A stretch of DNA of 64,000 nucleotides from Paracyclopina nana. Taxonomy: Eukaryota; Arthropoda; Copepoda; Cyclopoida; Cyclopettidae. Positions within the stretch are counted from its first letter, which is position 1, and every line of letters begins with the position of its first letter. The stretch lies in contig JAGUCH010000001.1 of NCBI GenBank assembly GCA_019096065.1, positions 3,906,001-3,970,000 on the forward strand, written 5' to 3'. Positions 8,084-31,268 of the stretch are shown here, one piece after another. Under the pieces are notes generated by a model. The model was given only the letters and a program-made list of their open reading frames with translations, was not told the DNA's origin and ran no database searches. Made by a program: the position numbers and the translations under genes.

Positions 8084-11000
8084 ATGATTAACCGCACCCG
8101 AGAAGACGAATGGCGGGCAGTGATGGCCACCTGGCTGGAGTCCAAAATGGCCTTGGACAGCTCGACGATTTTCAGCGACGACGAGTACGGCCTCCTAAAC
8201 GCGGCCAAATTCGCCATCCACGAGTTCACGTGGAATGCGAATCAATCAGAAAGGAGCCTCTTCGCGGAGGCCAGTGATCCTGATGGTAACGGCTCAGCCG
8301 TTGTCATCGATGGCCTGAACGTGAGCCGCAACCTCGAATACTTGAGTAGGGCCGAGGTCATCGCCAAATCGCCGTCCATGTACTCGCTGGCGGCAATAGT
8401 GATCCTCTCCGTCATCATCACCACCATGATGATTGTCATTGTGGTCGGCAACATGCTCGTGGTCATAGCTATTGCCACAGAGAACAATTTGACGACGGTG
8501 CAGAACTGGTTCATTGCCAGCCTCGCCGTGGCCGACATGTTGATCGGTTTAGTGATCATGCCTTTCAGCCTCAGTTACGAGCTAATGGGCTACTGGATGT
8601 TCGGAGCCATTTGGTGCGAAATTCACGCTGCTATGGATGTTTTCATGTGCACTTCCAGCATCATGAATATCTGCCTCATCAGGGACGAATGAACCATAGC
8701 CATCTACTTGAAAATGGGCTTCCTCTTTTGCTAATGCAGTTTAGCCACTAACCACTAGCTAGGGTAGTATTTAGATATGAATGCGCATGGTAGGAAACTG
8801 TAGTATCAGTGTGGGACCAATAATTCACGAGTAATATCGAGTCATTTGCCAATATGAAGCGCTACGGCAAAGGTGTGTGCGCGTGCTTATCGACAAGCCT
8901 TCATGTACACATGGCTATGGTTCACGATTAATGCAATTATCAGTCTCGACCGTTATTGGAGCATAACTAAGGCCATCTCTTACCTGAACCAACGAACGCC
9001 CACTCGGGTGGCCATAATGATTTGGCTCGTCTGGATCATGTCTGCTTTGATCTCTATTCCACCTTTACTGGGGTGGAAAAAGGACGTAGACCTTGACTGG
9101 CTGTGGGCCTTGCTCACCGAGCAGGGTAACCGTACCCAGCTGGAATTCCTGCAAGACCTCGAGGAATCCGGAAGAATAGACTTGACCAACTTTACCCAGA
9201 CTTTGGAGACCGTGGTCTATCCTCAGTGCACTGTGAGTAGCCTAATATTTTGACAGACTCGCGCGTTGACGTTGCTTCTGGCTGTAGCAGCAAAAAAATC
9301 AGTTTGTCCAACTTTCATGGTGGGGAACGTGAGCAGAAAGAAGCGAAAGCCAATGTTGTTTTTATGTCCGAAACTTACGAGCGTAAAGGTCCGAAAAAGC
9401 CAGCGTAATCCACGTTTAATTAAAGCTCGCGGTAGCCATAAGAAGAGTTTTTTAGGTGCACTCGCGCCAGTACAGCGAAATCTCATCATATAATTTCTGA
9501 CTCGGAATGGGAGTAGGTTCGGAATAGTTTGATTGCTTTCTGCTTTCGGCCATGCACGGCTTGATTAGGTTGCCACGAATTGGATGATGGCAAACTTTTC
9601 CGATTCATTTTTATCAGACTTACTTTTAGTAGCACTTTTGAATGCCCTTTTCTTTGGAAGATGTGACCACGTACACGTCATTTGAGCAATTTTAGTGGCC
9701 TCGAAAAGAAAGCTACACAATTTGACTATTCAGGATGCGAAATTGTATCCCTTGGGACCTGGATGCCTCGTTGCAAAAGCCCCAAAGTGTAATTAGCTGG
9801 GACCCGACTTGGTCTGTGTTGCATTTTGAGGCAAAAAATTAACAAAAACCTTAAATCTACTTGCTGGCCAAAAGCTCACTCTTCAGAGGCTTCATTGGAA
9901 TGGATGAAGAGTTCTTTGCTGGATTTAGCATATTGATTTTCGCATTCATCTTTCAAAAATTCTGTTTGAGGTAATCAAACCAAGTACAACCTTCCTGCTT
10001 ATAGCTAAACAAGTTGTAATTTGATAGCTTTGGACAAGTGCAACGGGTTTCAATTTGGGTAAAAGCTTCCTATTGCATCTGGTCAATTGCTGCAACAAAA
10101 TCTGGTTCCACCAGGACGTATAATGTGCAGTCCAATTTGTAAAGAGAATAATGGCCTTATCTCGATCATCGTCGATAATAACCTGATTAAAGGGAGTAAA
10201 AAAATAGATCTTACCACTTCTGATCGAATCATGCCCATGTATGCATCTGCTGTAGGCTTTATGATTAAAATGCAATTGCTTTCACTATATTTAACCATTT
10301 TAATCAGCACTGTGTTGATGAGGGATGGTTGAATGACTGCCCTTTCAAGCTGTTACCCTCAACTTTTGGTAGGCCTATATGTAGATAGGAATCTTTCCTC
10401 GCGCCGAATAGAATTCAATTTTCAAACTTTTTGTTTGAGGATGATCGTTTCTTATTCCAGCCTCAAGACTTTCTAGATAAAATTTGCATTTGCTGTCACT
10501 TGTGCTTATCTTAATAAAAGGATCACGGCTTTCCAGATTGATGAGTTCATTTACATCATTAACCCGTTCATCTTTAATGCAATATAATATTTGGCTTTAA
10601 AGTATTCAAATCTGCTATTATTAGCTGGAATTGACCATTGCTTTGAAAAAGCTGGGAAGCATGTAAATGAAAGAAACTGTAGCGCTAGCTCTGCTTATTT
10701 TTTAGAGTGAAATAATTTCTTCTGTCTTTTTCAAGTTCAAGGATCTTCTCTCACAAGGAAAATTCGAGACAGCTGAACACAATGCGAACTAGGGAGCTTT
10801 TTATCATAAATCATTTCAGCGAGCTGTGTGGCCACAGCATTTATTTCAACTTCAAGTGGCGTTAAAAAGTCCCAATGAAGACCCAAAATTATTTTCTTTC
10901 TCTTAGATGTTCCATTTTTGTCTCTAGCTTTAAAAATTAAATGGGACAGACGTGCACTGAGAAAAATTATATTTCTCTGTCATAGGTCTACGCATGCAGC

Positions 11001-14000
11001 TCCAAAGTACCAACTTTTTACATTACTTTTCCACCCTCACTCATATAGACGTAGGAATATATAAGTGCTGTAAAATTATTTCACAATCGGACAGCTTTTT
11101 TATTCGAAAGAAAGCACCTGAAGAGCACTCAATGTCCCATTTACGTAGCCAATTGTCATTTGGATTGTTGCTGATTTTTTGTCCTACAAGAAGTTCTTGA
11201 CTTTGAGCCTAAAAACACTTGTAGTAGCAAAAGAAATATTTGCAGTATACTGCGCATGATTCTGCGTGTCTTTTAAAATCGTTAGCAAGTTTTCATTTCG
11301 CCTAGTGCTTTTTTCTTTGCTGCTTTTCCAGCCCATTTAGTTGACCGTCTTGCATTTGCCATGATTTTGGGGCTAAAAGGGAGCGGAACAGTTCTTTGTA
11401 CTGGCCTAAACACTTTTTTTGCAAAGCATTTTGTCACATCTTTGTGCCATTCCTTTTAGCGCGCAGTCTCGCTGTGAGTGAAAAGAACCCGTATAGAGTC
11501 GACTTTTTGAATAAGCTTACGCAAGCCTACTCATCCAGAAAGGAGCAATCTCTTGCCAACTGAAACAAAAAGGCTAGCTCTGGTACTGGTTACAAGAAAA
11601 ATATGAAAACTTGATACTTTTTTAAAAGAAAAAATAATGAAAGCCTGCACATTACATAGTATATTTCTCCAACTGAATCTCAGAAAAGTGGAAATGTCTC
11701 ATTTGTCCTAATTGGCTAGTAAATGATCCTGTCCAATCGTGGAAATGTTGAATTTAAATGAACGGTGCTTCGTCAGATCAGGCTCCATCCATATTTAGAT
11801 TACAAAGATCCTAAAGATAGTAAAGATCACTGATCTTTGTGATCTATAAATGGACATTTTTTGTCAATATATAGATCACGGCGGTGGACGCGCAAGCAAA
11901 GCTGATCTATATATGGACAATTTCTTGGTTGAGAAAACGGAGATTCATATTTAGATCACAATCTGTGTTTATGATCTAAAAGTGAATATTTTAAGATCAT
12001 TAAAGACTCTGCATCCATTTTTCTAAGCCTAGGGTAAACTAAATTGATATTTTTGAAAAGGCAGACTATTCCTTTATTTGCTCTTGGATGTACTCTTTAT
12101 TTTAATAGATTGAGCTTGGTGAGAGAAAAGGGTTTCAAAATTATTTTTCCGAATCAATCCTGCATTTCAGACAAGGAAATGAAGAAGAGTGATGAAACCC
12201 TTTATGAAAGAGCTCTAATGTCAAAAAAAGACTCAATGCGAAAACATGGGCTTGCTCCTGAAGCTGGAGTATGTGATTGTATCCCTGAATCATATGAAGA
12301 AGCTGAAGAAGAGAGCCTTAGTGACTACATTGATATCCTTGCTCCAGATTGTGACCACCTTGATGATTTGGTTGTACTGTCCAAATTATGTGCCAAGGAA
12401 GTGGAGGCAAAATCTAGGAAGCTCAAAGAGCAAGAAGACAAATTCAAGTTCTTCATGAAATTTTGCACTAAGAAAAAATCTAGTAATTCCATTTCTCAAT
12501 TCTTCTTGAAGAAAGGGATTCCTGAGGAGGTCATTCCCAAAATTCTAAAAATAAATTGGCTTCCAATCCGTGAACCTTCCATGCCAGATGAGTTCAATCC
12601 CAAAAAGACTCCATTTTGCAATTGCTGCAAAATTCCTCAATTTTTGTGCTCTGACCTTGGAACTTGGTACATGAAGGTACCAGAAATGGCTCATCTGCTT
12701 GGGGTTGAATGCCCTAAGTACTATAAGCATAAAGAAGAAAAGAAGAGGTCAATGTCCAAGATGAAACAAGCTCTTAAGCTTGAAATCAAGGAAGTGGAGG
12801 CAATCTTATTGAGACTGCAGCCACTTTCTGAAACAAGTGAAAAAGATGGCTGTCCTAATTGCCTTATTTCTATCATGGACTGCCTTGAGTACCAAACATG
12901 CCACTTCAATAGGGAAAACATTGAAATTACTTACCAAACAAAGCTGACCCAGTTGCAAAAAAAAAAGAAAGGAACTTAAATCCAACAAATACTGTAAGAG
13001 ATTGGAATTGCTCTTTGGCATTTTGTCTCCTCTGTTTTGAAAAAATAAATTTCTGAAAAAATATCAAAAATATTCTCACCATTTTGAAATCAGGCAGAAA
13101 AATAAAGAATTTTTTAAACAACTCCTGCATTTAAAAAAAAAATTAGTTTACCCTAGGCTTAGAAAAATGGATGCAGAGTCTTTAATGATCTTAAAATATT
13201 CACTTTTAGATCATAAACACAGATTGTGATCTAAATATGAATCTCCGTTTTCTCAACCAAGAAATTGTCCATATATAGATCAGCTTTGCTTGCGCGTCCA
13301 CCGCCGTGATCTATATATTGACAAAAAATGTCCATTTATAGATCACTAAGATCAGTGATCTTTACTATCTTTAGGATCTTTGTGATCTATATATCAATAG
13401 AGCGGTCAGATCATGTGCGTCTAGAAAGTTTATGTTTCCATTTATTTTCCGAGGAGAAAGCAATCAAAAGGCTCGACTGGCTGAAACTTTTTGAGGCTAA
13501 ACAGGGAAGATGCCAGATGGCACACGTGTCAAGCTGCTTAATAATTTCCTCCTTCAGCCATCAATGCAGTGTTATTGGCAGGCTACGTAGCATAATATCA
13601 GAAAAGAAGCATAGTTTGCGTTTTGGGGCGCATATGAAATAAAGGCTTTTTGAAAGATTGGCCCAATTTGGTGAATTCGATTCAGCTGAATGCAAATGCT
13701 TCTCCTACCTACTTGCCCAGAAGAGTGGAAATGAGATTTTGAGTCGGTAGAATTTCTAATTCTTGTTCCCCGTTTGACAGCTTGTCGGTCGACAAAAACC
13801 ATTTGGAAGAAAAATGGCCTATTCGAGCCAAAAAGTTTGTATACCACGATGGCAGCTATCTTCAGCTTCCAAATTATTTAAAAATTAACAGTTAGTGGTT
13901 TAAAGGACGTCAGGCTAAACTGTTGAATGAGAAACGAGGATTTCTCCTTCAGTCTAGGGTCAATTCACGCAGGAGTCAGAAACGTCAGCTCAGCTTTTCA

Positions 14001-17000
14001 CCAAGCGTCAAATGCACATCCTCGTGAAGGATTTTCGATTCTGAAGAAGAAAATCTTCATTTACATACTGCACACATTTGCGAATGGGTGAAAACGAGTC
14101 CTCGCAATTCTTATAGATTATTTTCCAATCCAGCCCACAACGCAGCAGAAGATTTCTTCAAGAACAGCAACAAAAAGTCAAAAGCCAACTGAACTTATTA
14201 CCTCGAGAGGAAAAGCATAATAGTCACTGTATGCGAAAGTTGACTGTGAATTTTGTTGCATCACATCTAAAAGTGTGCTCGTGTATCCAACAAGTTTCGG
14301 AACAAAGCAGGACATTTCGGCCAAGCGTTGTCTGTTCACGACTTTACTTTGGCAATTAGCAGCTTCGGCTTTGTTGCTTTAATTGCTGCTGCATCAGCTG
14401 CACAAATCCTGCCATAAATTGTGCGACATGGGTCAGACCAGAAAACTTCATATTAGAAAACTTTTGTGCCTGTACTTTCAAACCAAGAGGCTAGGGTTGA
14501 TACTTGGTTTGGTAGCATATATTGGTATCAGTTCAAGAGACGTGGAACTGCATTTGCAATTTCCCGCGAAGATCGCACGGTGCATTTGGCTTCGTTCGCT
14601 CATTTCAAGTTTTGATAGATCCCTAGCATCTTCTAGCGTGCTGCCTTACTAAATTTAGATCTATATTTTGTTTGGAGTAGTGAGAGAAAGCTACAAGCTC
14701 TCTCGCGATGATGAGCACTTCTAGATAAGGATGACAAATAAAGCATGTGAGTGGAGCAAAAACTGTGAGGGGAAAAAATCAAAGGTGGGTCCAGGACAGA
14801 ATTTGAGACGTCTGTAAGCCTCTCTATTTCTGACACTTTTCTGACGAGGACGAAGGCGAAGCAACTGAAGGAAAAAGCTAATCAGTCGGCGCAAGGAGAA
14901 CTTCAGCAATTGCTTTCACTCGAATTAAAACCTCGACTCAGCAAAAATGTTTTCTTATCCACATGTTCAAGTGCACTCAATGCACTTTCCACTTTTTATT
15001 CAATTTTCAGATCTATTTTTTCTTTGGGCGCAATGAATGTACGTTGAAAAGGTAAATGCGTCTTTTGCATGCCCTTTTTGCCTTGGATTTGTCAGTCGCG
15101 CGGTAAAGTTTGTCAAAAAAGAGGCGTGACTGGCAAGGTCGTGTCACACGTTTCTCACCCGATATCCAATAGATCCAAAAATTGAAACTGACCCTTGGTA
15201 AAGATTTGCTAGCCCTTTTTGCTACTTCTACTATGCAAATAAATCTCGAAATTCGTTTGCTTTCGGGGGGTGAGCGTAGTAAAAGGTAACAGGGCTTGCT
15301 AAATTGGACCGTCGTTCTATACACAGGATAGCTAAAGCTACTTTGAAAAGGTTTGAAAGCACTTTTTGCTGCTTTTGGCATGCTCTTTTGCCCGCTGACT
15401 GCTATAATACAACAGGCTTTCTCGGAACTCGGATGAGTTTTGCCTCTTCCTTACCATACAAAGAAGAGTTTCAATAACTAGGCAGATGGCGAGAAAAAAA
15501 AAGAATTCGTCCATTAGAAAAGCTCCACTGTTTCTACTCGGCTGAGCACTCTCAACATACTACATGGTGCACTCAATTCAATTAGCTTCTACAAAGCTAA
15601 GAGAAGAAAGGGGGACAAGATCGAAAAAAACTGACACGGCCTTGTCAAGGACGAGTTTACCACGAGAGAACAAAGCTTCAGTGATAGAAACTACTTGGCT
15701 GTGTGACTTCCGGAAGCTTGAAAAATGGAATATGAGAAAGTTTTGGTTTCTTCATATTAGTTGTTGCGCGATTCTTCCAATTTCTCTAGATAGATAAGAA
15801 GGAAAAATGATGGTCCCGTTACAGTTGTTTTGTAGTTTTTATTTCCCCAACTTGTCTAACTTGCTGTGATATCGGCAAGCTGAGCTTTCTAGCGTTTCTT
15901 GCGAGGTCATAAAAAGCACCGAATCAAAGTCCAAAGTCATTCTGACATAAAGTGTCCTGAAAATAGATTACATCATAATGACCGAGCATTAGACTCTACT
16001 ATAAAGTAGATGAGCTATTCTTGCTCTTCCACTTTTGATGAGGGCATACATGGTATTATAAGGGCAGCAATTTTCGCGATCAGCTTCTCATAATTTTTCC
16101 ATATATGCTGCTTCTGCTTTTTTATCGTTATATAGCCGTCGCTCATGTTGAGCAATATAAGGAACAAGTGAAAGTAGCTCTGCCACTCTTCGTAGTTAGT
16201 GGACTGCTGAAGGAACTTCACTTCTAATAAGATTAATAGGTGGACAAAACAACTCCACTGAAATGCTGTAGATGAAGGTTTGCCATTGGAAAGCTGCCGG
16301 GGGCCCAATATAATTGATTATAAAAAATGCCAATGCATAGCTTTTCCCCACGTTTTTCTTCTCGTGTGCTTGGAGACAAAAGAGACTTTTTGGTTTCACC
16401 TCCTTCTCCTGCCGCTGGCCCTCTCTTTTTTCCTGCTGAAACTTTTGAACAAGAAAATTGGTTAAGTACACAACTTCCCACGGGACTTGCAAACAAGTAA
16501 AGTTACTGCCACCGCAGAAAACATAGCTTGATGGAAGAACAACTTGTTTTGGTCCCTTTATCAAGTTTGAAGTATGCAAATGTATTCAAGGCTGTAACAT
16601 CAGTAGCCTTGCCTTACTTCATCAGCGGCGCTTAAAAGCAGCCTTGATTCATTTACATTATAATGGGAGATTAGCGAGCAGCCGGGCTCAATAACAATGC
16701 GCCACTTAAAAGCCTCATTTCAATTGGTGAACCGTCCACCTCTGCTCTCGCGAATTCGTCCTGATATTTGCTTCGTCGGAATGCTGTGACATAAGCTGCT
16801 TTGACACAATTCGCCAAGTTCTCATGGGATCAAGATATTTCTTGCTCGGATTAGCTCTCGTCACACTGAGCACAGATGTTCGAGTACTTTAACTGATAGG
16901 ATAGTCGTCTGTCATGCATAATGTATTGCGGTGATATTCCTTATCTCTTTTAAAAGCTAGGCCCAAGATGTTGTGGAAAGGCAGATCTAAATGGAAATGA

Positions 17001-20000
17001 AAAGCCTCATATTTTACGACTTTATCAACAGCTTTCTAAAATGAAAAATCTAAAATCATTCGTACATAAATGCTCTTGCTCTGCTAAGCGAATAAAAGGC
17101 AAAGTTTGAACAAAAGGTCGCTTTGCTGCAAAGAAATTCCCGCATTACGCATGTAAACTCTTTTGTCTTTTTAAAAGGTGCGGTCTCTTTGGCCCCGCAT
17201 CCTTTGCAAAATTGGCGAGCTATGCAAACATTTTAATATTCTTCAAGCGGGATAAGGGTTGAAAGCTATTTTGTTAGCTTTGACAGACTCGATTTAAGAA
17301 TTCCCATGACACTTTCTCTAATGGGTAGATAAGGTTCCTGGTAGCCTTTTCAATTTTCCTTTTTACTGGTAATTCTTTTGTTGGTTCTGCTAAAAGGAGC
17401 GGAAAATCTCCCTGGAAATAAGCAATGCCATCAATCAGTCTAAAGTCTACGATAAATCAAGGGAATGTTTCGTTGACTCCAAGACGACGAAAATGGAGCC
17501 TCTTTCAGGACCCATTAAGTAAAAGCATTTTCTCTCTCAGTTTCTTTCTCTCAAGGGCAAAACCTGCTTTGCTCATTCAGTACGGTTACTTCTTGACAAT
17601 TTAGCTGCATTCTTAATTCTAAATTGTAAATCCTTCCTTTTTGAATATGCTTTCAAGTGGTGAAACTAAACGTATTTTACACTATAGTACTTTTATTCAA
17701 TTGCTTTCACCATGATGCCTCCACAGAGCATGCAAGTTGACACTTACCCAGAAACATTCAGAAGAGTTTTCTTTGTGTATTGTCATAGCTTGCTTCTTTG
17801 GCCAGAGCACTGGTTATTTCCTCATGCGAATCGATAGAGGTCACGCCTCTTTAAGAGTGCATCACAAAATAATGTGGTCTGCCAACAAGGACTCTCAAAA
17901 GAACATTCTAAGCCAATGTGGGAGTGCTCCGTTATTTTCAAAAGTGAAGACACATTTTTCAGGCTCTCTGAAAAAAGCTGTAACACACAATGTGTGGCTT
18001 ATTCTCTCAGAAAGCTTCTAGCTTTAAAAAATGAGCTTTTGATTGATACCATGTCAAAGCGGCCTCTAATAACCCCTCAGTAAAGAAAGTTGGGGGCTAC
18101 TTTGCTGACGTTAAGAAAGGGTTGCGCTACATTTTAGGCATTTTAACACCACCTTGGGGCTGCAATTGGTCCCTCGACCTTGAGAAATACTTTGACATCA
18201 AAGCTGTCTTCCCCACCGGAATCTTCGAACTGTACATAGTTCAAATTGAACTGTGACGCAACTGTGGAAATTTTGAAATGTACACAGTTAGGTAAGGGTT
18301 GTTATAGAAATGTGACAGATCTGTGAAATTGTTCTGTACATAGAAGAAAAATTTTGAAATGTGAACTAACTGTGTACATTTAGAGCACAATATGTCGATT
18401 TCTTATTGTTTTAGAAATGTGACAAGCAACTGTGACACAACCATGCATATATCAATTTTTTTGTTCTCTGAAACTACTATGGAGCAAAGAAGCTGAAAAA
18501 TGATGACGTCGCTTTAAAATGTGAAGTAACCATGATTTGATTTGTGACTGATGTATTAAATAACCATGAAATTTATTCATTTTGAATCTATGAAATAACT
18601 TTTTTTCAAGTCATGAAACTACCATGCAAAATACAATAATTTTAGTAGTTTTTCAGTTACTAAAAATGTTCAGAGATGGCGCTGTCATCTTAGCATTACA
18701 TCTTTGATTGAAACATATTACACAAATCCATTCACATGTACTATTAATTGGAAAACTCAATTGAGAGTATCCTATGAAGGCAATTCCTTAACTGTTCTAA
18801 TGCTATCAATTTATTTTTTATTACAAAAAACAAGTAAACACAAAAAATGTTCAATAGGCTTATTGGTTGCCAAAATTGATGTAAGCTCATTATTTGATTA
18901 TTATTCTTAAATTAAACAGGCCAAGATTAATCTGAACTATATCATAACATGTGATGTCATTGACATAGATATTTTGGATTAAGACTGAAGATGTGTTCAG
19001 GTACATACATTTGTGCTGATAGGCCAATATTTATGAGGAATATCCCTTGACTCATTCAAGCTTGAGGTCACAATTCCAAATGAAATGTGAAATGACTGTT
19101 GCTCTTAATTCTTTAAGTTATGCTTGCATGGTTGTTTAACACTTTGGTTACAATTTGTATCACATCTACATCACAGATCGGATCAGACAGAAATATTGGG
19201 CCGGACTGTACCCTGAAATAACCATGAGAACAGATAAATAACAGTACCAATTTTAATAGTTGTTTAAGAGTACACTAACATAACGTCTTAACAGTTGTTT
19301 ACCCTTCTATGTCATAGAAGGCTTTTGAAATGTAAGCGTCACATGAACCTAATGTAAACAGTAACATCACATTTTTGCTTTCGCGACCCTTCTGTTCTGT
19401 GACACAAATGTGACTGAACTTAACAATTCCGGTGGGGTTCTCGATTCCCCAATCAAAATAATGGATGAAGTTATTAATCAAGTATCTACATAGCTTACTT
19501 TAAAAATGCTCAGTTCATTGGAGGCACTGCTTAACCCAATTATCATTTATGCCAAAAACCAAAATGAAATTATCTGAAGAGAATCTTCTAATGGCAAATA
19601 TTGTAGCTCTTACATGAAAAGCTGCGAGCTGAGCAAGATTCATTTTCATTTCTTGCTGGAGTAAGCACCAGAAGCACATGTGCTAAGCCAGTTTGCCAGT
19701 TTTGTGCTGGTTCCATTTCAGAAATGGCTTGCAGATCAGTGCAGCAGTGTTGACGCCATGTTGGGTCTCTGAGGGACTAGTAATAGCATCTAGTGGGACC
19801 TTTTTGAAGTCCCCCTTTAATCTTTTCTTCCTTGCAAAAAGGAGAGGCCACAAATTCTATTTCTGACACCATGCACCCACTAGTCACTACCCAACTGGAA
19901 ATAGAAGGGCTATGTCAGCCAATTTTCCGGATTTCCATTATCTGTTCTGTGTCTTGGTCATTCCAGTCACGTGACCAGGTCAAGAAAATAAAGGAAGTCA

Positions 20001-23000
20001 GTGCACAAAATGCAAATGCTAGATAAAAATTTTTTACTCCCTGAGTTTTCTAGATACCAGCAATTTGCTCTACATACATGAAGGGGAAGCATCTTGTTGA
20101 AAATTAACTCATTTTTCTTATTCAGGCTAATGCCATTGTTGCTGAATAAAGTGAGTTCATTGCCAATTAATTATAGTTATTTAGTTCGAGCTGGGGCACA
20201 TAAAGTAGGGTCATTAAAATCTGAGGTCAGCTATTAAATGACCCAATTTTACGTGCCCCAGCTCGAAATATACAATTTTATATTCTGTAATACGATTTTT
20301 GAGTGTTTTAGTGAAGTAACCGGGCTGCCCAGTGCCCTAGAAAATACTGCTTGGTTTTTAGTTGCTATGTGAATATCACTGGCTGTCATGAGCTAGCATC
20401 CTGTGGTTTGGGAGGAATAAAATGGACTTTTAATATCCATTTCTTCAGAGGTGCTCCTATGGCACATTGGTAAGAGCGCTGGGCTCTTGATTCAGAAATC
20501 TAGGGTTCAAACCACAATCATTCTTTACGTTTTTTGATTTCTTTATCTGGCTTAAGTTATGGTTAAGTCCTATACAGAGCATGCAACTTTCATGATGTGC
20601 CATAGCTTAGTGGTTAGAGTATGGAATGCTAATCCAACTGTCTCAGGTTCAAATCTAGGATAATCCTCTCTTTTTTCTAACTTCTTTGGAATTTGGATTA
20701 GTTCCATGGAATATGATGAGCATTAAATTACTTAAAATCCCTCAGATTTGATTCCTGGGCCGTTAAGTATTTAAAGTCCCCCCAAATTGCTTAGATAGAA
20801 CTGTGATGTAAAAAAGCTGAGTCGGATCGGTAAACTCAATTATAACACGAGGAAATTGTATTACAGTATATAAAAATTGATTTGGGCTAGCCTCTTTGTA
20901 AAACTTTAATTTCTTCTTTTTTATAAATAGGTTGAAGAAATATTGGTGTACTTTTGGCTTAACCAGTGCAGTGGCGTGAAATCGAGCAAAATTTGTTGCT
21001 TTTAATGGAGAAAGTTCATTGATATATAACTGAACAGTAAACAAAAAAGTTTTTCAGCTAAAGTTATTGAGGGCTCTCTTGTATCGATTGTCTTAAGCCC
21101 ACTCCAGGCTTTTATGTGAAACTGCCTCCTCCCTCAGGGTTTGCTTTGTCACGGCTGTTAAATTGCCCATTTAGCTCTGCACGCCTTACTTATTATAACA
21201 TCCTGATTTTAATCCATTCTTTTGGTAAGAAGTTTTCCTCAAAGCAACGGTAGCATTACCCAGTAAGCTGACTTTTTTGCCGATTCTGATGTGAAAGCCA
21301 TTGCTCTAACAAAATATCTAGGTAGAATGCAGCAATTGAACATAAAAATTACCCCAGCTTTGCGGACTTGGCCAAAACTTTATTCTAAAACTTTTGGACT
21401 CAACACTTTTAGGCAGATGCTTGCTACTTTCCCCCTCACCTAAAGTTTAAAAAATTGCGTCGAGCAGAAGTTTGCTTACGCATAAATACAGCTCATAAAT
21501 TGCTTCTTCTGCGCGAAGAACAAATTGCTATCATGGAATTGTTTCCTTCTACCTACTTTGGTATAACACATTTGCAAGATTCCCTTGTTCGCTATAGCAT
21601 TTTAGGCATGGGTCTTGTTTTTGCAAAACGCCTTGCTGTGCTAGGATTATTTATGAGCTCATTGGTAGAGATGGCTTAACCCCACCAGAACTTTGGTTCC
21701 CGATTCGAGAACGAATGTTACGCGATTCCTCTAGAGTACATATTCGGTAAAGAATCATTCTACGATTTTGTCTCGATTAGTCAGTTAATTTGACCAACAG
21801 AAATAATCATTGATGATTATTACTCAAATTCTTGGCAAAGAATCTCTAACAAAAATGTCAATTAACATTCTTAGATGATTGTTTCATTATCAATTGATTC
21901 ATTTTTGTTTTCTCAGCAAACATGATTATTTATCATCTTGACTACTCGGGAACAAATAAGGAACTTAAAGGTCAATAACTTTTCAACATGTACTCAGTGT
22001 GAAAAGTTACTGATTGCTAATGAACTATTCAAGAGGTTTTGCTCTGTAACTTTTCATTAATGAATACTGCTTGACTATTCAAGAACTATTCAGGAACTTC
22101 TATTTCATGAGCTTTTCAATGATAAATACTTCTTGATAATTCAAGAACTATTCAAGAACTTTCATTCAGTAACTTTTCAACAATAAATTATGCTTGATTT
22201 TTCAAGAATTATTCAGTAAAGTTCATTTAAGCAACTTTTCAACAGTGAAACCTTCTTGATAATTTAAGAACTATTCAAGAGCTTATGTTCAGTAACTTCT
22301 CAATAATGAATGAAACCTGAATATTCAATTATAATTCAGGAATGTTGATGTCAACAACTTTTCAAGAATGATTTTTTTCATAGTTAAAGCAAGTTCAAGC
22401 AAGTTCAAGAACAATTCACAAACTTTTGGTTGGGAACTAATCAATGTGAATACTTTTTCAGCTATTCATGATTTTTTAATTTCAGTAACCTTTCAATTAT
22501 GAATGCTTCTTAAGCAGTCAAGAACTATTCAGTGACATCTGGACTTACAAAAAATTCAAAGTACTCTAAGAATTTAAGCTAGCTCCATCTATAGCATTTT
22601 CAGCACAATATTGTAGCTAAAAATATTGTAAATAGTTGTGGGTCCTCTGTGGTCTAGAGGCAAGGCACTGGATTCCAAAACTGAGGTTCATGGGTTCGAA
22701 TCCACCATGGGTAAACTATCTTTCTAGCTTTTCTAACTTTCTTTCTTTCACCTGTAATCCATCATAGTCTAAAGATAGTGAAAGCTTAATCAAAAAGCTA
22801 GAAAGCTCCCCTAAAAATTAATTTTTGACAGGTCCTTGAATAATAGCTGAAATCAAGTCCTTGAATATTAACTGAATTCAATTCCTGAAAAGTTCCTGAA
22901 AAGTTCCTGAATATTCTGGTTGGAACATACCTGAAAGGTTGAGAAAGAATTGTTAACAATTGATTAGGAGAGAATCATTAAATAATCATTGGTTGATTTA

Positions 23001-26000
23001 AACAATCATTCGAGTGCTAATCACTTTCTCAACTCGAAAAAACGTCACCGATTTGATACCGATTCAAAAAATAATCAAGAATGTTAATAGTTCACGAATT
23101 ATCCTTGTTTTTCAACCAAATTTTCGGGCAAAGTTCTGGTGGGGAATAAACCTTCTAAATGTGTAAATCACACAATTAGTATATCTTAAGTTTTTGAGAA
23201 TAACCCTCCGTTGGCTGAATTGCGCTTGTTCTAATAGAAACTCAGTAAGGCAGGCGGTAAGCAAAGCAAGGCACTTTGGAAGTTCACACCTCAGTAAGTA
23301 CTGACCCGATTGGAACCAAATTTGAAGGTTCATATGAGCATATCGAAGAATGTTTATGCAAAATATCATCCGCATCGAAGGTCTTTAAGGAGGTGGCTGA
23401 TTCTCCTTTGCTTAACGGCCTGATGTCAGATGTGTTGTAGAAGTACAGCTGTGTAAGAGGTCACCTGACATTATAGATCATCTTGGGTAGCGCAACTTTC
23501 AAAGAAATCCATCATTCAACCCTGCCACGTTAATAAGTTCTACTTCAGCGCATTTACAATCTTTGCAATCGTGTGAGTTATAGTCATACTATGGGCTTAG
23601 TCTTTCGCAAGTTTTGCATAGTCACGCTATTTAAATAGCTCATAGCATAAAACGTAATTAAATAGCCTCTGGATGTATTTAAATAGCTGCTATTTAAATA
23701 CGTTTTATGTTATGAGCTATTTAAATAGCGTGACTATGCAAAACTTGCGAAAGACTAAGCCCATATCTTGCCTCATGACTTTGGCCCGAAGCTTAGCAGG
23801 TACCAATCATCGTTACTTCACGACGGCCATGAATTTATGTGCTTATCTGGGCTCACCACCAAATCCGAATGAGATGTAAGCTTACGTTGCGTAAATATAG
23901 TCGGGAGTTGGAGGTTGATATGGTAAGTTTTCTAAAATTCTAAAGCATAAAGGAGCTTTAAGTTTGTTGGCTGATTCTTTTTAGGCAAATCTTCTTTGAA
24001 GGATTTTAAAGTCCCATGCTGCAAATATTGCAGATCTACTCGAATTTTTTTGATCTATTACCATTTTCGGCCTTTGAATCATGCTAGTATGGTAGTGGGA
24101 ATTCATTTGCATTGGCACTGAATAAGTAGGTACATATGCTACGCTACTGTGTTTCCATACGCTTTGATGTAAACCTTAAGGCGATACTCTTCAGCTAGCA
24201 GATCATCTGTATTTGCTTTGCCATGCAGCAATAACAATAACAGTTAAAGGGTCCTTTGTTGACCATTCCAAAACGCCATCACCTGAATCAGATGATTCAT
24301 AGACTAGACCGAGAAAGCCCAAAGGCAAATCCTTGCACAGCAAGCGGTCTTGTTTAAAGTAGCTGTTATTAAAGACGGTTGAGCTTTGAAATATCCGATT
24401 TAGGCCCTGATCACCTGTGATATAATCAAAAATTATCGCTCGATATTTCGCAGATATTTTTCAGATTTTTACTTCGGAATCGGTCTTAGGGTCCAAAACC
24501 CACCGATCTTTCATCAATATAAAAATTATCATGCAGTATCTCAGATATTCTGCCAAAATATTGGCTAAATATGCTCGCGAACCCAGCCTATTAGTTGGCT
24601 GGCAAAGGGAATTCAAAAGCCATGATAGCTTAGTGTCCCTTTCGAACCTCTCGAAAACTACGTTATGGGTGCATTTTTCGTCCATGGTTCCTTTCCCGTT
24701 GTTCGTCGATGCGAGGCTAATCGACAGCTTCTAGAACCACACGGGATATGCATGAGACTAAAACAGTAATCCTAATGGCACTCCTCCTTTTTACGTCGGA
24801 TCCATCCATATGCAGTGACTGCTAGCAGCAATGCAGGAATAATTGCCACACTAGAAGAAACAATTCTCTACTGAATACAGGAGCCTCGTATAAAGGAGGT
24901 TTTTTACTCTGATGAGGCAAACTAAAGATAATGTGACTTAGAGCTGAACATGATTGGCACTTTTCGTGTGAGAAATACTTGACACAGAGTTCGGCATTTT
25001 TTTGCCCCATCCGATCTGACTTTCTATCCTTATTTCTTTCGGTTAATGACCCACTGCATTGTATTACGGCCCATAAGGTAGACAATTCGGCCGTTAAATT
25101 GTAATGGCTACTGAACATCAACAGAGCAGTATTTGTTGTAGTTTATTATTTTTATGGACATGCTCCTACTGTTGAAAGTAACATGAGAATTCAAAGAGGG
25201 ATCAAAGGAAATGGGGCTCAGAATTGAGGGTCATTCGATCGCGAATAGAATGCGCGGAAATTAGAAATTGATGAGACCGAATCCAAGAGCAGTTTTCCTC
25301 AAACATTTAAAAACGTTCTAAAAACCTCTGCAATGACATTATTGCAGCAGCAGGTGCAACGGCTGAAAAAGAGTCTCTTGCAAGTCTAAAATGAAATCAC
25401 GCATATGTGCACATACATAATCGGCTCGTTTCCTTTTTATTTGAACACGTGAGATAGCAGTAGCAAGTCTGCTAGTTTTATATGAGACGCGTAAAATAGG
25501 AACGACATATCAGCCTTAAATGGAATCATCCTTCACCTTCTTCACCATTTGTTCTGCCTGATGGGACATTTATAGATATACACCATTCTTGTCTAAAAGT
25601 GATCTGCTGGTTGGTTGAAGAGGGTTTTATAGTCTCTTCTTGGCTGAGATTAACATCACTGCTTCTGCTGCGAGAGGAAACTTTCAAAATGTAGAAGTAG
25701 TTGTTGCATGCAGCAAGTAGGACATGAAAGCAGCCTTGATGCACTTCCAAATAAGGCCATATAAAGTCTAAAGTTGTTATCATGCAAGGTGTCCCTTGTA
25801 AAAAAGAGATGGAGAAAAATTCAATGATAACATGAAGGAAAAGTATGTAAGCTGCTTTTTCGAGAGGCTCAAGCTGCGTCGGAAAGAGGCTTTGTTAACA
25901 GTGACTACAAGAAGATACTCACACTTCTATGATACGTAGCCAAAAATTGACAGAACAAAAGGAAAAAACCGCTCATGATATGATGAATGATCTGGAATGC

Positions 26001-29000
26001 GATCTTCCCCACTAAGTGTTTCGCCTTACCTTCAGTTGGATCTAAGTTGGATGTAAGTTGGATTTGGTAAGCCTTAATGCCAAGTTTTTTATATAGTGAT
26101 ATGTGACATATAAGTTGGTCATGTAAGTTGAAGATCATTTTTAAAATTTCTCTGAAATAACTATTTATTGCATCTTATAAATTCAATTATAAGTTGAAAA
26201 ATTTCGGTAATGTAAGTTGTCAGAAAAACATTAGTTTTGCTCAATGTCAAATTATAAAGTTGATTATAATTTGTTTATACAACATTGTAAGCTGAAAATC
26301 AGTCGCTTGAAAAAAATAGTCATTTTCATATTGCTATATACCATAGAATGTTTTATTTAATGCAATTCATAGGTTGAATGAGAAATAAGCATTTGATATT
26401 TTGTTGAAATAAGGTAATATTGCCATTATCAAACTTGAACACTTGATACAATCCCTCTCTGCTTGGAGCAGCTCTAGCTTCTCATAGTCAAGAACTGTCT
26501 TGTCATCTCTTTCAGTAGTTGTTTCCTCTTCTGCTCTCTTAGAAGAAGGCTTGTCTCTTTGAAGTAATTATCAGCTGATTATTAATTTTTTTCATTTGAA
26601 ATGTACCTTTGCTAAGACATATTCAAATGGAAACTTCATAGGAGACGATACGAATGGCGCCTTGGATTGGATAGGGTTGGTCACCAAACACTGAACTTTC
26701 ATGCCGATCGCTAGGTCGCTCCTCTTACTTGAAAACCCAACCATTGGATTGAAGTTGACTATTTCCAAAATCGGGTTTTTTAAGCATACCAAAGCATCAT
26801 CCAAAGCCAAGTGGGTGACAGGCAGGCTTTTTATCAAATAAATTACAATCACCTGAGTGTATTCTGCTCCAGGAATCTCAGGAGACAAGCTTTTTGCATC
26901 TTGAACGTTGGATTGCAGTGATTTTTAATGATTTTATCTTTGTAGGCAGTTTTTTTAACTTTGGTTTTATCCACCTTTGATTTGGCGAATTTATTTATTA
27001 TTTTGGCAGCTGAATATTTCAGCAGCTGAATTAATTGGGGTCAATTGTTAAATTATTGGTCACCTTAAAACCATCCCTTATAAGCAACTGAAAAATTCAA
27101 TTGCAATTGGTTTTGTAAGTTGTCCATTGGTCAAATTATTGTAATTTGTGATGATTTCATTTATCACCAAATTATTTCCATAAATTATAATAATTTGAAA
27201 ATAATTTGTGTCAGTTACGGCCAACTTATTCGATTGGCAAATAAGTTGAAAATCATACTTTTATAAGTCATGATAGACAAATTATCGGCCATAAATTACA
27301 GTAATTTTTAGGTAAGCCAAAAATCAGTTTGGCGGCAAGAGCGAAAACACTTAGTGGGGTTTAATACTCCCGCACAAAATTGCAGCATTGAAGAAATGGT
27401 GAAAAGGCTTTTTTCTTTGTAAAATATTGCTGCTATGAATGCAGTATGGCTTGTTCTTGAGATGAAGATTTGCTGTAAACGTAAATTTAGGTTTTTTTTC
27501 TTCCCAACTGCCCTAACATAAAGCTAGCTATTTTATGCCAAGGAATGAACCATTTTTACGCTGCGGTTCTCGCCACTGAAAAATATTCAAAGTCAGCGTA
27601 TTTTGGTGAAATAACACCTCATATTTTTACGTGCAATCTATGGGAAGTCATTTATCACAGGCATTTTGGCAAGCCTTGAGGTAGTATCCAAGATAAAAAT
27701 GTGTACTGTTAAATGGTGCTGACGAAAACCTTTCTTAAAACTTATGTATGTGTCACTTTCAGTCACCCAGCTTTGTCGTAGAATAAATTGCCATTTTGGG
27801 TTTTTACTTTTCTTGATAGAAGGATACGTTGCTCACGCTGGATTTCCTTGCAAGCAATTTGATAGGAACAAAACCGGAAAAATCGATGCAAAAAGTGCCC
27901 TTATCATGTTAAAAAGAATACCTTTAGGTATGAAAAGTCGAACATTTAAAAGAGACTTTGGTTCACCATCTTCTGCGTATTTGATCGTGGCATGGTTGCG
28001 GATGTTATATCGGTTGTTATTTATGACGAGGTTGCGATGTCAGTAAATAAGAAGCGATCAAAGACTCAGCATAAGGACGAGTTAAGCTTGGGGCCGAGCA
28101 GCGTTTTTATGGGCAATTTGACAAAAATCTTTATAAGCAATTTTTCTTCCCACAATCAGTTTGAATTATGCTTGTTAATTTAGAGTCAAATTCAACGATC
28201 CACTAAGCTCAACATAATTGTAATTGAGCGCATTTTAACTAGTTAAAATTTTGATTGTTTAATTTATTTTATTTTATGCCTCCTCGCGAAGCATTTTGAA
28301 CTCCTCCGCCAATTCATTTGTAAGTGAGGCTTTTATTTTAAGAAAATAGCTGATTTGTCAATTAATTTGAGTCTAGGGCGGCAAAAAAGAATGACATTGG
28401 AGTCTTTCGAAAGCCCAAAAGTTGATAGCATGCTAGCACTTGAAATCTTGTCTTCAATTTCGAGATTTGTCGGAATTTCCCGTGCGCGTCAAATCGGCTT
28501 TTCAGTGCTTTCGACAAGCAATTTTGCCTTGAATCGGTGTGCCTTCGTAGCTTGAGATGGCCAACGATATGACTTGACAAATGTTTATATTGCTTGCATA
28601 GAGGCACTTTTTTCATTTGCTACCTATTTGGAAAAGAAAGTTCTATAAAAGAAACCACACTGTTTTATTCGTTTTTCTAATGCCTTCTGCATGAAGTTGC
28701 TTGCTCGCTTTTTTCACTCATGCTACAAGCAGCAGCCTCTGCAAATATCATCGACCTCGCAGCGTTTTGATTTACGACGTGTTGCTTACTGGCTTGGTGT
28801 TGGCAAAAAACAGCTACTGTAATAGGATTTTGGCCACAACTTTGATTAAGATTTATTGAACGGACTGACCTTTTCACATTTTACATCCTTCTGCGCTGGT
28901 CGCAAATTATGTGGTTATTCTTGAATTATCCACGCCTAGCTTAGGAAATTATTGTAACTAAAATCTCTTGTTGCCATCCAGCCGGTCTAAGGCGTTCCCT

Positions 29001-31268
29001 GAATCAAGGCAATTAATGAATGATACAACTCAGGAGAGAAGCCCTTGCAATTTTTCATTTCAACCGAAAGTAGATTCTGCCATGTAAACGTCAACGCTCT
29101 GAGCTTGATGCTTTGCAATTTAGATTTTTAGGTCAGCAGACATTATTTGGGTCTTATGCCCCTTAGAAATGTAACAATACTGTCCTGATGACGAGTCCAT
29201 ATAGGGTTTTTCGCTCATGAGTAGTCAAATGAAAGATCACCGAGTGGCGAAGCCACGAGTGATCTGGAATTTTACTACGAATGAGCGAAAAACCCTATAT
29301 GGACGAGTCATCAGGACAGTATTGACATTTTTGTCAGCTTCGTGAGGGTTAAAAGTCCCAATAGTACTTTTAAATGCAAAAAATTGAGTGATTTATCAAT
29401 TAAATTGGCCTTAAAAAAGATAGCTAATTTGCAGGAAAAACTTTGCGGTCAATCGCGCGCGCATTATAATGAGGTTAGCAACACAAGAGCTCAGCAGTCA
29501 TCAGTCACTGCTAAATGCGGTGTCATTTCAATAGATGGCGCTTTTTCATGCATTTTTAAATCACATACCAGAGAAGGTTTTTAGATGTGCTCTGGTGGCA
29601 TAGTGGTAGTGTGCAGGCCTTTCACTCAGCAGACCCAGGTTCGAATCCTGGTGTTGTCTTTTTTTTAAATTGAAGAAGAACTCTCAAGTCGCCAACCGTA
29701 CAATAATGAATATTATTTCTTCACATGTGATGAAAAAAAGATCATTATTGTACGGTAGATGCGAGCGCACGCCTAATCTCTGCAAAATACAAGGATTTTC
29801 GCTTCACTGCCGTATGTAGTGAACCCACCGCCAAGTTGACAAAAATGGTGTATCAAGTGTCATATTCGAAGGGCCAAGTTCTATGCTTAACCTTTGTCCG
29901 TTTCTCTTGCAGTTGAGCCAAGATCTGGGCTACGTTATGTACTCGGCCTTCGGATCATTTTATATCCCCTCATGCATTATGGTCTTTGTCTACATCAAGA
30001 TCTACTACGCGGCCAGGGAGAGAGCCAGACGGGTCATCAACAAGCCCGGCTTTTCGAAACGAATATCCAGGCGCTTTGCCAAGGCCAATTCAGCCACAGC
30101 AGCCTCCTCGGCTGCCGGGGCAGCCTCTGTGCCACCTGCAAACAGAAAAGCCAACATTGCAACGATCTCAAACCCCAATGGGTGCATTAACAACTCGCCA
30201 TCAAATAATACCACAGTGGGCAATTCGGAGGGCTTGCAGCTTCCAATGCCACCAGCCGCGCCCGTCGCGTCCGCCTCCGCCACCACGGAGGCCAAAAAGA
30301 AAGTAGAAAAGAAAACGAGGTTTGATATTGAAGCCTCGGAAAGCATGGGCGAGGACGACGCGTTTCTGCCTAACGACCAGCAGCCCATGAACAGCAAGCT
30401 GGCATTATCGACCATGGACCCCAAAAAGAAGAGACTCGTGCACATTCTGAGTGCAACCTCGGTAGAGGCCCCGAGTGGGCGGCCGTCCGACCCGGAAGTC
30501 ACCATAGCCAACAAACCTCACGCGTACGGCGCTTGTGCCACGAACGGAGGCCACCTTCGCACCCGGAGGTCGGTGGGGGTGAGCACCAAGGACGACGATG
30601 ACGCCAATGTGATGGAGAGCAACAAATCTACTCAGCTGTCCTCGGCGGCAGCTCCCGCGTCTAAGATGAACGAGGTCAAGTGCCTCAAGTTTCGGCTCCG
30701 GTCCAAGTTCAAGAACACCACCGGCCGGAGACCTTCGAAAGAGACACGAGAAGTCATAGATATGGGCAAACTTTCGGCAGCCTCGGCAGCCACCAAAAAA
30801 CGGTCCCCTCTCAATGGCATCCTACGAAAGATGGAGAGCAGAACATCCATGCTGACCTCGAGCGAGGCGGCAACCATTGTGCATTCATCAAACGTGCCTA
30901 ACAATAACCCCGTGTCGTCGGGCGCCTCGCCTTCTGGCCCACCAGCCTGCCCCAAACTCACGCCTGAGCAGGAGGCTGACAAGGAGAAGAAGAGAATCGC
31001 GAGGAAGAAGGAGAGAAGGGCCACCCTCATTTTGGGCCTGATCATGGGGTCCTTCATCGCCTGCTGGTTCCCCTTCTTCTTCCTCTACTCAATCAGTCCG
31101 ATATGTCCCATCTGCGAGACGAGTCCCGAGGCCGCGTGCTGCGTCCAAGGCTGGGGCTTCACTTTTGCTTTCTGGCTGGGCTACTCCAACTCGGCTCTCA
31201 ACCCAGTGATCTACACTGTGTTTAACAAAGACTTTAGGAGAGCCTTTAAAAGGATTCTCTTCAAATGA
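8084..31268 (+). CDS. Octalpha2R: Alpha2-adrenergic-like octopamine receptor (class A biogenic-amine GPCR)
   Basis: Plasma-membrane receptor for a biogenic amine, most likely octopamine, coupled to G proteins. Coding exons are 8084-8682, 8944-9232 and 29913-31268, giving 747 residues. The start is the first ATG in the open frame. The N-terminal ectodomain of about 100 residues has NRT, NQS, NGS and NVS glycosylation sequons. TM1 carries GN at 122-123, TM2 LAVAD (D151), TM3 the amine-binding D185, then DRY at 202-204. C178 and C295 can form the extracellular disulfide. TM5 has serines at 307 and 311. The third intracellular loop is about 325 residues, Ala/Ser/Lys-rich. TM6 has CWFPF near 679, TM7 NPVIY near 726, and the protein ends in RILFK. 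TM1-TM3 and TM5 resemble insect Octalpha2R more than D2-like or tyramine receptors, but this is from memory. Intron 1 (8683-8943) lacks GT-AG. Intron 2 is GT-AG, phase 0, 20.7 kb and full of mobile DNA. The gene is tail-to-tail with TAPT1. Confidence 0.85.
8683..8943 (+). other. Non-canonical 261-nt intron-like insertion with 14-bp inverted repeats and 5-bp direct repeats
   Basis: The receptor frame is interrupted inside the conserved I-S-L-D-R-Y-W stretch. Removing exactly 261 nt restores it seamlessly. The pentamer ATCAG flanks the segment (8678-8682 and 8939-8943), so the true cut could lie at any of six equivalent positions, and none gives GT-AG, GC-AG or AT-AC. Near the ends lies a perfect 14-bp inverted repeat, TGAACCATAGCCAT at 8690-8703 and its complement at 8911-8924, only 7 and 19 nt from the borders as drawn. 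If unspliced, a stop at 8690-8692 truncates the receptor in TM3. Either this is an intron derived from a MITE-like insertion, with ATCAG as target duplication, or it is a recent insertion that breaks this copy. Confidence 0.7.
11781..12043 (+). repeat. Left terminal inverted repeat of the Mutator-like element
   Basis: Matches the reverse complement of the right arm over roughly 250 bp with few differences. It contains several GATCTATA/GATCTAAA repeats and a GC-rich patch (GGCGGTGGACGCGCAAGC) that is conserved in both arms. Confidence 0.8.
12179..12979 (+). CDS. Orphan 266-residue cysteine- and lysine-rich protein carried by the Mutator-like element
   Basis: I do not recognise this protein. 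The frame is open upstream to 12044, but the first in-frame ATG is at 12179, just after a splice-acceptor-like TGCATTTCAG, so a non-coding first exon in or near the left inverted repeat is possible. The protein has an acidic segment ([10 protein letters not shown]), a charged, probably coiled-coil stretch ([15 protein letters not shown]), then cysteine clusters (CNCC followed by C, and GCPNC followed later by CLEYQTCHF) that could bind zinc. The C-terminus is a lysine run. Polyadenylation signals AATAAA follow at 13044-13049 and near 13100. It lacks the DDE signature expected of a Mutator transposase. It could be a captured host gene fragment or an element-encoded accessory protein. Confidence 0.65.
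   Translation: MKKSDETLYERALMSKKDSMRKHGLAPEAGVCDCIPESYEEAEEESLSDYIDILAPDCDHLDDLVVLSKLCAKEVEAKSRKLKEQEDKFKFFMKFCTKKKSSNSISQFFLKKGIPEEVIPKILKINWLPIREPSMPDEFNPKKTPFCNCCKIPQFLCSDLGTWYMKVPEMAHLLGVECPKYYKHKEEKKRSMSKMKQALKLEIKEVEAILLRLQPLSETSEKDGCPNCLISIMDCLEYQTCHFNRENIEITYQTKLTQLQKKKKGT
13141..13404 (-). repeat. Right terminal inverted repeat of the Mutator-like element
   Basis: Reverse complement of the left arm, starting with TTAGTTTACCCTAGGCTTAG and ending at the 9-bp duplicated target GTCAGATCA. Confidence 0.8.
18211..19437. mobile_element. CCCCAC-ended non-autonomous DNA element, copy 1
   Basis: The ends are CCCCACCGGAAT and its exact complement ATTCCGGTGGGG, a 12-bp inverted repeat. The dinucleotide TT flanks both sides directly. 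The 1.2-kb interior has no convincing coding sequence. Instead it repeats short degenerate words such as AAATGTGAC, AACTGTG and TGTACA, giving a satellite-like texture on the left and, less densely, on the right. Two further elements in the same intron share the CCCCAC ends, the size and the TT or AA flanks but not the interior. Confidence 0.6.
20450..20520 (+). pseudogene. tRNA-Lys(CTT)-like unit in repeat copy A
   Basis: An A-box-like TGGCACATTGG is followed by an anticodon stem CTGGG/TTCAG enclosing the loop CTCTTGA (anticodon CTT, Lys), then a B-box GGTTCAAACC. The acceptor stem does not pair, so it is a SINE head or tRNA relic rather than a working tRNA. Confidence 0.6.
20594..20664 (+). 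pseudogene. Second tRNA-like unit in repeat copy A
   Basis: An A-box-like TAGCTTAGTGG, an anticodon arm TGGA-ATGCTAA-TCCA (anticodon GCT) and a B-box GGTTCAAATC are visible. The anticodon arm resembles tRNA-Ser(GCT), but the long variable arm of serine tRNAs is missing. Acceptor pairing is poor. Confidence 0.5.
21975..22540 (+). repeat. Degenerate tandem array with 60-62-bp period inside CCCCAC element copy 2
   Basis: The word ACTTTTCA or a close variant recurs at about 22049, 22111, 22172, 22233 and 22294, a spacing of 60-62 bp. TTCAAGAACTATTCA variants are interleaved at the same period. Units have diverged, so the array is old or unconstrained. Confidence 0.6.
22641..22713 (+). pseudogene. 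tRNA-like unit inside CCCCAC element copy 2
   Basis: It has an A-box-like TGGTCTAGAGGCAAGG and a B-box GGGTTCGAATCC with a plausible T arm. The anticodon region reads ATTCCAA, suggesting TCC (Gly), but the anticodon and acceptor stems do not pair well. It is followed by a T/C-rich stretch. It is most simply a SINE head or tRNA relic nested in the element. Confidence 0.45.
23592..23763. mobile_element. Palindromic MITE with TA target duplication (Tc1/mariner-type)
   Basis: Two arms of about 75 bp are almost perfect inverted copies. Outer ends are TGGGCTTAG and CTAAGCCCA, the inner part is rich in TATTTAAATAG. The dinucleotide TA flanks both ends, as expected for Tc1/mariner-type insertion. 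It is 172 bp with no coding capacity. Confidence 0.65.
26007..27359. mobile_element. CCCCAC-ended non-autonomous DNA element, copy 3, with coding-like interior
   Basis: The ends are CCCCACTAAGTGTTT and its complement (15 bp, with CGC following after a one-base offset), flanked by TT on both sides. Outer parts are made of short degenerate repeats (TAAGTTG, TAATTTG and variants). The middle, about 26367-26930, differs: read on the minus strand it has two blocks with protein-like composition, listed separately. Size, ends and flanks match the other two CCCCAC elements. Confidence 0.65.
26367..26930 (-). pseudogene. Coding-like blocks inside CCCCAC element copy 3, possibly a captured gene fragment
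   Basis: On the minus strand 26930-26607 is open for about 108 codons with balanced composition (for example [17 protein letters not shown]) and ends at a donor-like AAG-GTACAT. After about 45 nt a second open block runs to a stop at 26367-26369, hydrophilic ([16 protein letters not shown]) then hydrophobic. I do not recognise either block. The phases of the two do not agree at the most obvious splice sites, so it is either a decayed captured gene or spliced differently from what I propose. The surrounding repeats have no such coding character. Confidence 0.4.
29167..29330. mobile_element. Foldback (palindromic) element of about 164 bp
   Basis: Long inverted arms start at AAATGT(AA)CAATACTGTCC on the left and end at GGACAGTATTGACATTT on the right. 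They include CCATATAGGGTTTTTCGCTCAT and its complement (the left one is 29200-29221). The centre has a smaller hairpin, GATCAC...GTGATC. No target duplication is obvious and there is no coding capacity. Confidence 0.55.
29586..29666 (+). pseudogene. Solitary tRNA-like unit with oligo-T terminator
   Basis: An A-box-like TGGCATAGTGG is followed by a perfect T arm, CCAGG-TTCGAAT-CCTGG, and then T9, a typical RNA polymerase III terminator. The anticodon loop reads CTTTCAC (anticodon TTC, Glu), but its stem is mispaired and acceptor strands do not pair. Probably a tRNA-Glu-derived SINE head or relic rather than a functional tRNA. Confidence 0.5.
29695..29756. repeat. Small 62-bp inverted repeat
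   Basis: ACCGTACAATAATGA (29695-29709) and its exact complement (29742-29756) form 15-bp arms around a 32-nt loop, about 160 bp before the receptor's last exon. It may be a tiny MITE or the end of the neighbouring tRNA-like repeat. Confidence 0.45.

Follow-up and report, generated by a model that had tools for sequence, protein, structure and literature searches.

A 261-nt insert in an amine receptor gene of the copepod Paracyclopina nana is probably a GG-AG intron with a 14-bp end stem

How can an otherwise intact receptor gene carry, in the middle of its coding sequence, a 261-nt segment that breaks the reading frame and lacks the usual intron ends? The segment is found in a window of 64,000 nucleotides of the Paracyclopina nana genome, by which we mean the whole stretch of DNA analysed here, and an initial annotation of this window had described it as a non-GT-AG intron bounded by ATCAG repeats. 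As stated there, its exact removal restores the frame, joining ...NICLI to SLDRYW... (NICLISLDRYW). The 747-residue open reading frame that results is undamaged over three exons, the third of which lies some 20.7 kb downstream of the second, and it matches the 7tm_1 family with 198 bits (Table 1). If the segment is retained, a TGA is reached at position 8690 and translation stops after 202 residues. The full-length receptor of 747 residues would require the predicted excision of the segment.

The gene is predicted to be an amine receptor gene of the alpha2-adrenergic type, and the best solved relatives of its product are alpha2A adrenergic receptors (E 1.8e-44). The amine receptor assignment given previously is therefore retained, whereas its narrower 'octopamine' label is presumptive. 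The insert had been placed at the DRY motif; more precisely, it sits in a Ser codon two codons ahead of the D. The nearest paralog that we found (C1:3901667-3902938) is located just upstream of the window, belongs to the same receptor type and shows 47-55% identity. It is uninterrupted at the position of the insert and has an intron of its own some 20 residues earlier, at CQ/VH, with GT-AG ends (a slash marks a splice junction).

Table 1. Features of the receptor gene and of its first intron, in window coordinates
Feature	Position	Strand	Remarks
Exon 1 of the alpha2-adrenergic-like amine receptor	8084..8682	+	ATG 8084-8086; N-terminus to TM3; 3' end CAG
Left ATCAG copy	8678..8682	+	CAG forms the exonic part of the putative donor
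Putative donor CAG/GGACGA	8680..8688	+	U2-type 5' splice site context, G at +2
Candidate intron 1	8683..8943	+	261 nt, GG-AG, phase 2
Left stem arm	8690..8703	+	14 bp, starts at +8 (7 nt inside the insert end)
Right stem arm	8911..8924	+	14 bp; 19 nt lie between it and the 3' splice site
Possible branch site TTAAT	8928..8932	+	A at 8931, 13th base from the 3' end; predicted by motif scan
Right ATCAG copy, putative 3' splice site ATCAG/T	8939..8943	+	Weak, without pyrimidine tract
Exon 2	8944..9232	+	DRY, TM4, second extracellular loop
Intron 2	9233..29912	+	20,680 nt; canonical, ACT/GTGAGT...TCTTGCAG/TTG
Exon 3	29913..31268	+	TM5, long third loop, TM6, TM7; TGA stop 31266-31268

Because the pentamer ATCAG flanks the segment on both sides, as had been noted, its ends can be set in six registers (k=-5 to 0), all of which yield the same mRNA and an identical joined product. 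The corresponding ends are AT-TT, TC-TA, CA-AT, AG-TC, GG-CA and GG-AG. In agreement with the initial annotation, none of the six equivalent registers has GT-AG, GC-AG or AT-AC ends. We also searched the vicinity of the gap for pairs of a donor and an acceptor that keep the length of the product within 3 residues, and this search returned no GT-AG or GC-AG pair; it returned two AT-AC pairs, which change the product by -1 and +1 residue and replace conserved residues of TM3.

To what extent the ATCAG repeat is particular to this insert can be judged from 24 checked introns of the same genome, which harbour junction direct repeats of 0-6 bp, including one of 6 bp and one of 5 bp. Such repeats arise because CAG is consensus at both the exon end and the intron end. 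The ATCAG repeat thus appears to be mostly splice consensus. A target-site duplication was considered as an explanation for it and set aside as needless, its length being ordinary among these 24 introns. Caution is called for when short direct repeats at the ends of introns are interpreted, as these mostly reflect splice consensus.

The 24 introns, which belong to chaperonin and receptor genes and were placed by homology (23 GT-AG and one GC-AG), served to generate donor and acceptor profiles. Among them, the intron of the upstream paralog was placed by motif, and five depart from the profile length by 1-3 residues. Scored over seven positions, with +1 and +2 left out, the donor context at k=0 (8683/8943) reaches 7.1, and those of the other five registers range from -11.8 to -4.0. 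This register is the sole one of the six with a donor-like context, and also the sole one ending in AG. On the same seven positions, 4 of the 24 checked donors score at least 7.1, one tie having an identical context, and 0.12% of the positions of the window reach that score. A context at least as good is found in 283 of 40,000 random six-register junctions, 8 of which also have G at +1 and a 3' AG. CAG/GTACGA, one base away from the present junction (+2 T to G), serves as the donor of a chaperonin gene (C3:11406244), and GAG/GTACGA is a donor in a receptor gene (C1:1741618). With T at +2, the donor would score 11.0 (range of the checked donors, 5.4-11.8). The acceptor TTATCAG/T scores 0.1, below all 24 checked acceptors (4.0-13.9). 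Seven matches to U1 genes were found in the genome, and the four that were read all have the standard ATACTTACCTG start.

Since one of the six registers fits the splice signals of the genome itself, we consider that 8683-8943 is probably a U2-type, major-spliceosome intron with GG-AG ends and a real end stem. A non-GT-AG intron, as named in the initial annotation, is thereby kept as the most likely interpretation, in the form of a consensus donor changed at +2. We infer a genuine G at +2, removal of the intron and a contribution of the stem to its splicing. Splice sites of this sort are rare but have been described before, and they do not amount to a new kind of intron.

We then asked how the other introns of the genome end. 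A total of 41 other introns were settled, 40 of them GT-AG and one GC-AG, which makes the GG donor described here 1 of 42; the absence of GA or GG donors from the 41 is mildly biased, as the first ranking favoured GT-AG, and the sample is small. Of 29 gaps examined first, one was the receptor insert, one was not an intron (C5:5600576, open through) and 27 were taken as canonical, namely the 24 tabulated for the profiles and three placed by eye. One further intron was placed by eye later, 21 further matches yielded seven settled introns, and 12 further gaps yielded five, with the other seven of these gaps possibly hiding different ends. The second intron of the receptor gene completes the sum. 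For two of the settled introns, at C2:8722991, a GA candidate outscored GT; GT was taken because choosing GA would cost 3 and 40 coding residues. In the sample, the genome is thus without the habit of GA and GG donors described for another copepod, Eurytemora affinis (see below).

The second feature of the insert is its end stem. The perfect 14-bp inverted repeat reported earlier, 7 and 19 nt inside the ends, is present as described. Its arms are separated from the ATCAG copies by 7 nt on the left and 14 nt on the right. Neither +1 to +7 nor the last 19 nt, which include the possible branch site TTAAT, take part in the stem, an arrangement expected of a stem that draws the splice sites towards each other. 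When the two 60-nt ends were shuffled, a 14-bp stem was obtained in 0 of 200 cases, and a 10-bp stem in 47 of 20,000. The end-duplex z of the insert is -4.81, and the longest end stems of 12 other introns of at least 100 nt range from 4 to 9 bp. As a whole, the region does not fold more stably than shuffled sequences do (z -0.26). In real sequence, a stem of this kind joins the 60-nt ends of 43 of 49,034 overlapping 261-nt segments (about 0.1%, in some six places). The stem therefore exceeds chance, and it is still rare in real sequence. In addition to it, the window harbours 13 perfect inverted repeats of at least 14 bp with arms within 1.5 kb (14 in all), compared with 0, 1 and 0 in three random 64-kb sequences. 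Inverted repeats are common in this DNA, the non-coding part of which is rich in hairpin elements, and a stem can thus arise without having a role. Flanking by a stem was also recorded for candidate donor/acceptor pairs, and both scores are at least 6 in 3 of 434 such pairs, which are candidates only, with inverted repeats counted on both strands.

The stem may nevertheless help the splicing of the insert. Despite the mismatch at +2, U1 would bind CAG/GGACGA by pairing with its exonic CAG and at +1, +3 and +5. The stem, from +8 to 19 nt before the 3' end, would loop out the interior of the insert and bring both splice sites and the branch region close together, and this juxtaposition might compensate for the weak donor and for an acceptor devoid of a pyrimidine tract. 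It can also be proposed that the stem is what makes the intron removable, either by replacing the definition of the 5' splice site or by rescuing the GG donor and the tract-less acceptor. If so, end pairing would substitute for the usual splice signals in an animal gene. We hold this proposal to be rather unlikely, because of the 13 other inverted repeats of the window and of the roughly 0.1% of real segments that have a comparable stem.

An end stem was also observed in a GT-AG intron of another receptor gene (C8:5771089-5771288), with 9 bp, an end-duplex z of -2.92 and a fold z of -2.06. That intron shares sequence with six other places in the genome (E up to 10), and stems there can therefore come from repeats. 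A common origin of this intron and of the insert was considered and rejected, their alignment being no better than those of shuffled sequences (59 of 100).

Several other explanations of the insert were weighed against a GG-AG intron. The first is a base error or a minority allele: the intron would be a plain GT-AG one, with the G at 8684 due to a mistake in the consensus or to a rare variant. The junction is indeed a single base away from a strong donor already in use in this genome, and GG is absent from the 41 other settled introns. However, one wrong base does not explain the weak acceptor, and the assembly (92 Mb in 10 contigs) suggests good data, even though this is no proof of base accuracy. 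On balance, we regard such an error or allele as unlikely, yet as a serious alternative.

The second explanation is a gene-breaking change, in which a GT-AG intron has lost its donor by a T to G change at +2, or a segment was recently inserted, leaving a truncated receptor of 202 residues. The TGA encountered upon retention and the weak acceptor are in keeping with this, as is the fact that +2 changes usually damage splicing, according to the available part of a report on human variants (PMC12805630). A recent loss would leave no other mark. Nevertheless, none of the 747 codons in the three exons is damaged, the second intron has canonical splice signals, and as no source copy of the insert was found in the genome, a fresh copied insertion is unlikely. 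A broken gene therefore appears quite improbable.

The third explanation is close to one of the two suggested in the initial annotation, a MITE-like insertion removed by pairing of its ends. The insert would be the remnant of a MITE or introner, i.e. of a non-autonomous DNA transposon with a target-site duplication, that is spliced out. It combines an inverted repeat with a short direct repeat. Introners are present in copepods, and part of the non-canonical introns of Amoebophrya carry similar repeats, as far as the available portions of the respective studies indicate (PMC9860276; PMC7789003). With one mismatch allowed, the arm is found at 25 sites, compared with 5 for a reversed control pattern, which contains CG, absent from the arm. 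Nevertheless, no two of these 25 sites are within 100 kb of each other. Further copies, looked for across the 92 Mb and 10 contigs, did not turn up: the insert matches itself only, and the exact 14-mer of the arm is limited to the two arms. No repeat family was thus found genome-wide for the insert or its arm, with the proviso that diverged copies could escape the search. Moreover, the arms do not abut the direct repeat in the way that terminal inverted repeats abut a target-site duplication, and the length of that repeat is ordinary for introns of this genome. A scan of 258 kb for other inserts with a repeat and a stem that join coding stretches, with a stop inside and arms of at least 12 bp, retained none; it is a weak scan, as the known insert itself falls below its coding cut-off. 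RNA families were also searched for in the window, and none reached the gathering score. Given the U2 donor context, and with no copies found, no abutting repeats and no pairing of the type found in euglenids, removal by end pairing is not needed to account for the insert, and we consider a mobile-element remnant very unlikely.

In euglenid nonconventional introns, +4, +5 and +6 pair with -8, -7 and -6, mostly as CAG/CTG (PMC4770533, in the part available). A spliceosome-independent intron of this style, with its ends defined by the stem instead of U1, is scarcely credible here in spite of the perfect 14-bp end stem, the non-GT-AG ends and the borders that are ambiguous within a short repeat, since the six registers show at most two of those three pairs and no CAG, the arms are set 7 and 19 nt inward, the donor context agrees with the U2 consensus and the sampled introns include no second example.

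The GG-AG intron that we favour has its closest counterparts in Eurytemora affinis. The initial annotation had considered such an intron new for an arthropod-like amine receptor; a GG donor as such is not new in an arthropod. In that copepod, donors with GA or GG account for 12% of 297 introns from ten genes and for 10% of a sample of 623 introns (Robertson 2017, PMC5714493). They are preceded by AG without exception and almost always have A at +3, and the sole U1 found intact carries the usual 5' end (PMC5714493); one U1 variant among five candidates is mentioned in the accessible part of another study (PMC7072748). The P. nana intron resembles them by its GG donor, the AG at the exon end, the A at +3 and the usual 5' end of U1. 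It also resembles them in that its removal is needed for the full-length protein, and that its position is not common to the nearest paralog examined. It differs in that GA/GG introns reach 10-12% in E. affinis, compared with 1 of 42 settled introns here, and in that the main text on E. affinis mentions no end stem (PMC5714493). In two Tigriopus genomes, the homologues of those E. affinis genes are devoid of GA and GG donors (PMC5714493).

In humans, a +2T>G variant of ATM gives rise to a functional GG donor (PMC12805630). GG is thus used as a donor, as proposed here, in such human +2T>G cases (PMC12805630; counts of Parada 2014 quoted in PMC5714493); in contrast with our intron, these are disease variants or mostly alternative sites, and the available portion of PMC12805630 describes no bridging stem. 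Some non-canonical introns of Amoebophrya have inverted repeats of 8-20 nt and direct repeats of 3-5 nt over their junctions, so that, as in our case, an inverted repeat joins the intron ends and a direct repeat spans the boundaries (PMC7789003, available part). Those introns are repeated elements without a clear end signature in genomes with >60% non-canonical introns, as the same portion of that text has it, whereas the receptor insert is present in one copy and has a U2 donor context. Non-GT-AG ends, end pairing and ambiguous borders are likewise shared with euglenid introns, to judge from the accessible parts of two reports (PMC4770533, PMC11170887), from which the insert is set apart by the absence of the conserved +4 to +6/-8 to -6 pairing and by its U2-like donor context. 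In the titles and abstract openings surveyed, whose coverage is incomplete, we found no published animal example in which a GG donor is combined with a bridging stem, and we do not claim that the combination is unpublished. Work on introns by Henriet reportedly concerns Fritillaria, and a study in fish is said to describe a stem standing in for U2AF.

If the G at +2 is genuine, the receptor gene provides a natural GG donor in an intron that must be removed to obtain the gene product, within a genome whose other sampled introns stay GT-AG or GC-AG, and any help provided by the stem would be measurable. A gene finder limited to GT and GC donors would truncate this receptor.

Putative mobile elements were observed elsewhere in the window. 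The 20.7-kb intron of the receptor gene harbours an element (11839-13346) with perfect inverted repeats of 204 bp (11839-12042 and 13143-13346), between which lies an open frame of 313 residues (12038-12976) that matches nothing in Pfam at E 0.01. It looks like a recent foldback-type transposon. A MITE-like element at 35713-35814 has near-perfect terminal inverted repeats that start with TAGGGTTCT, with a perfect inner part of 21 bp, and it is flanked by two copies of the 8-bp TCATGCAG. From this 8-bp duplication, we take it to be hAT-like.

Finally, the genome contains 84 myosin-head matches, 11 of which span the whole head in one stop-free open frame. Four of these 11 intronless myosin-head exons form an array on one contig (C7:1136132-1168459). 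Elsewhere, two pairs of matches on C2 and C4, C2:8492483/C4:9501098 and C2:14197811/C4:103911, show equal or nearly equal scores, which hints at recent duplicates common to both contigs.
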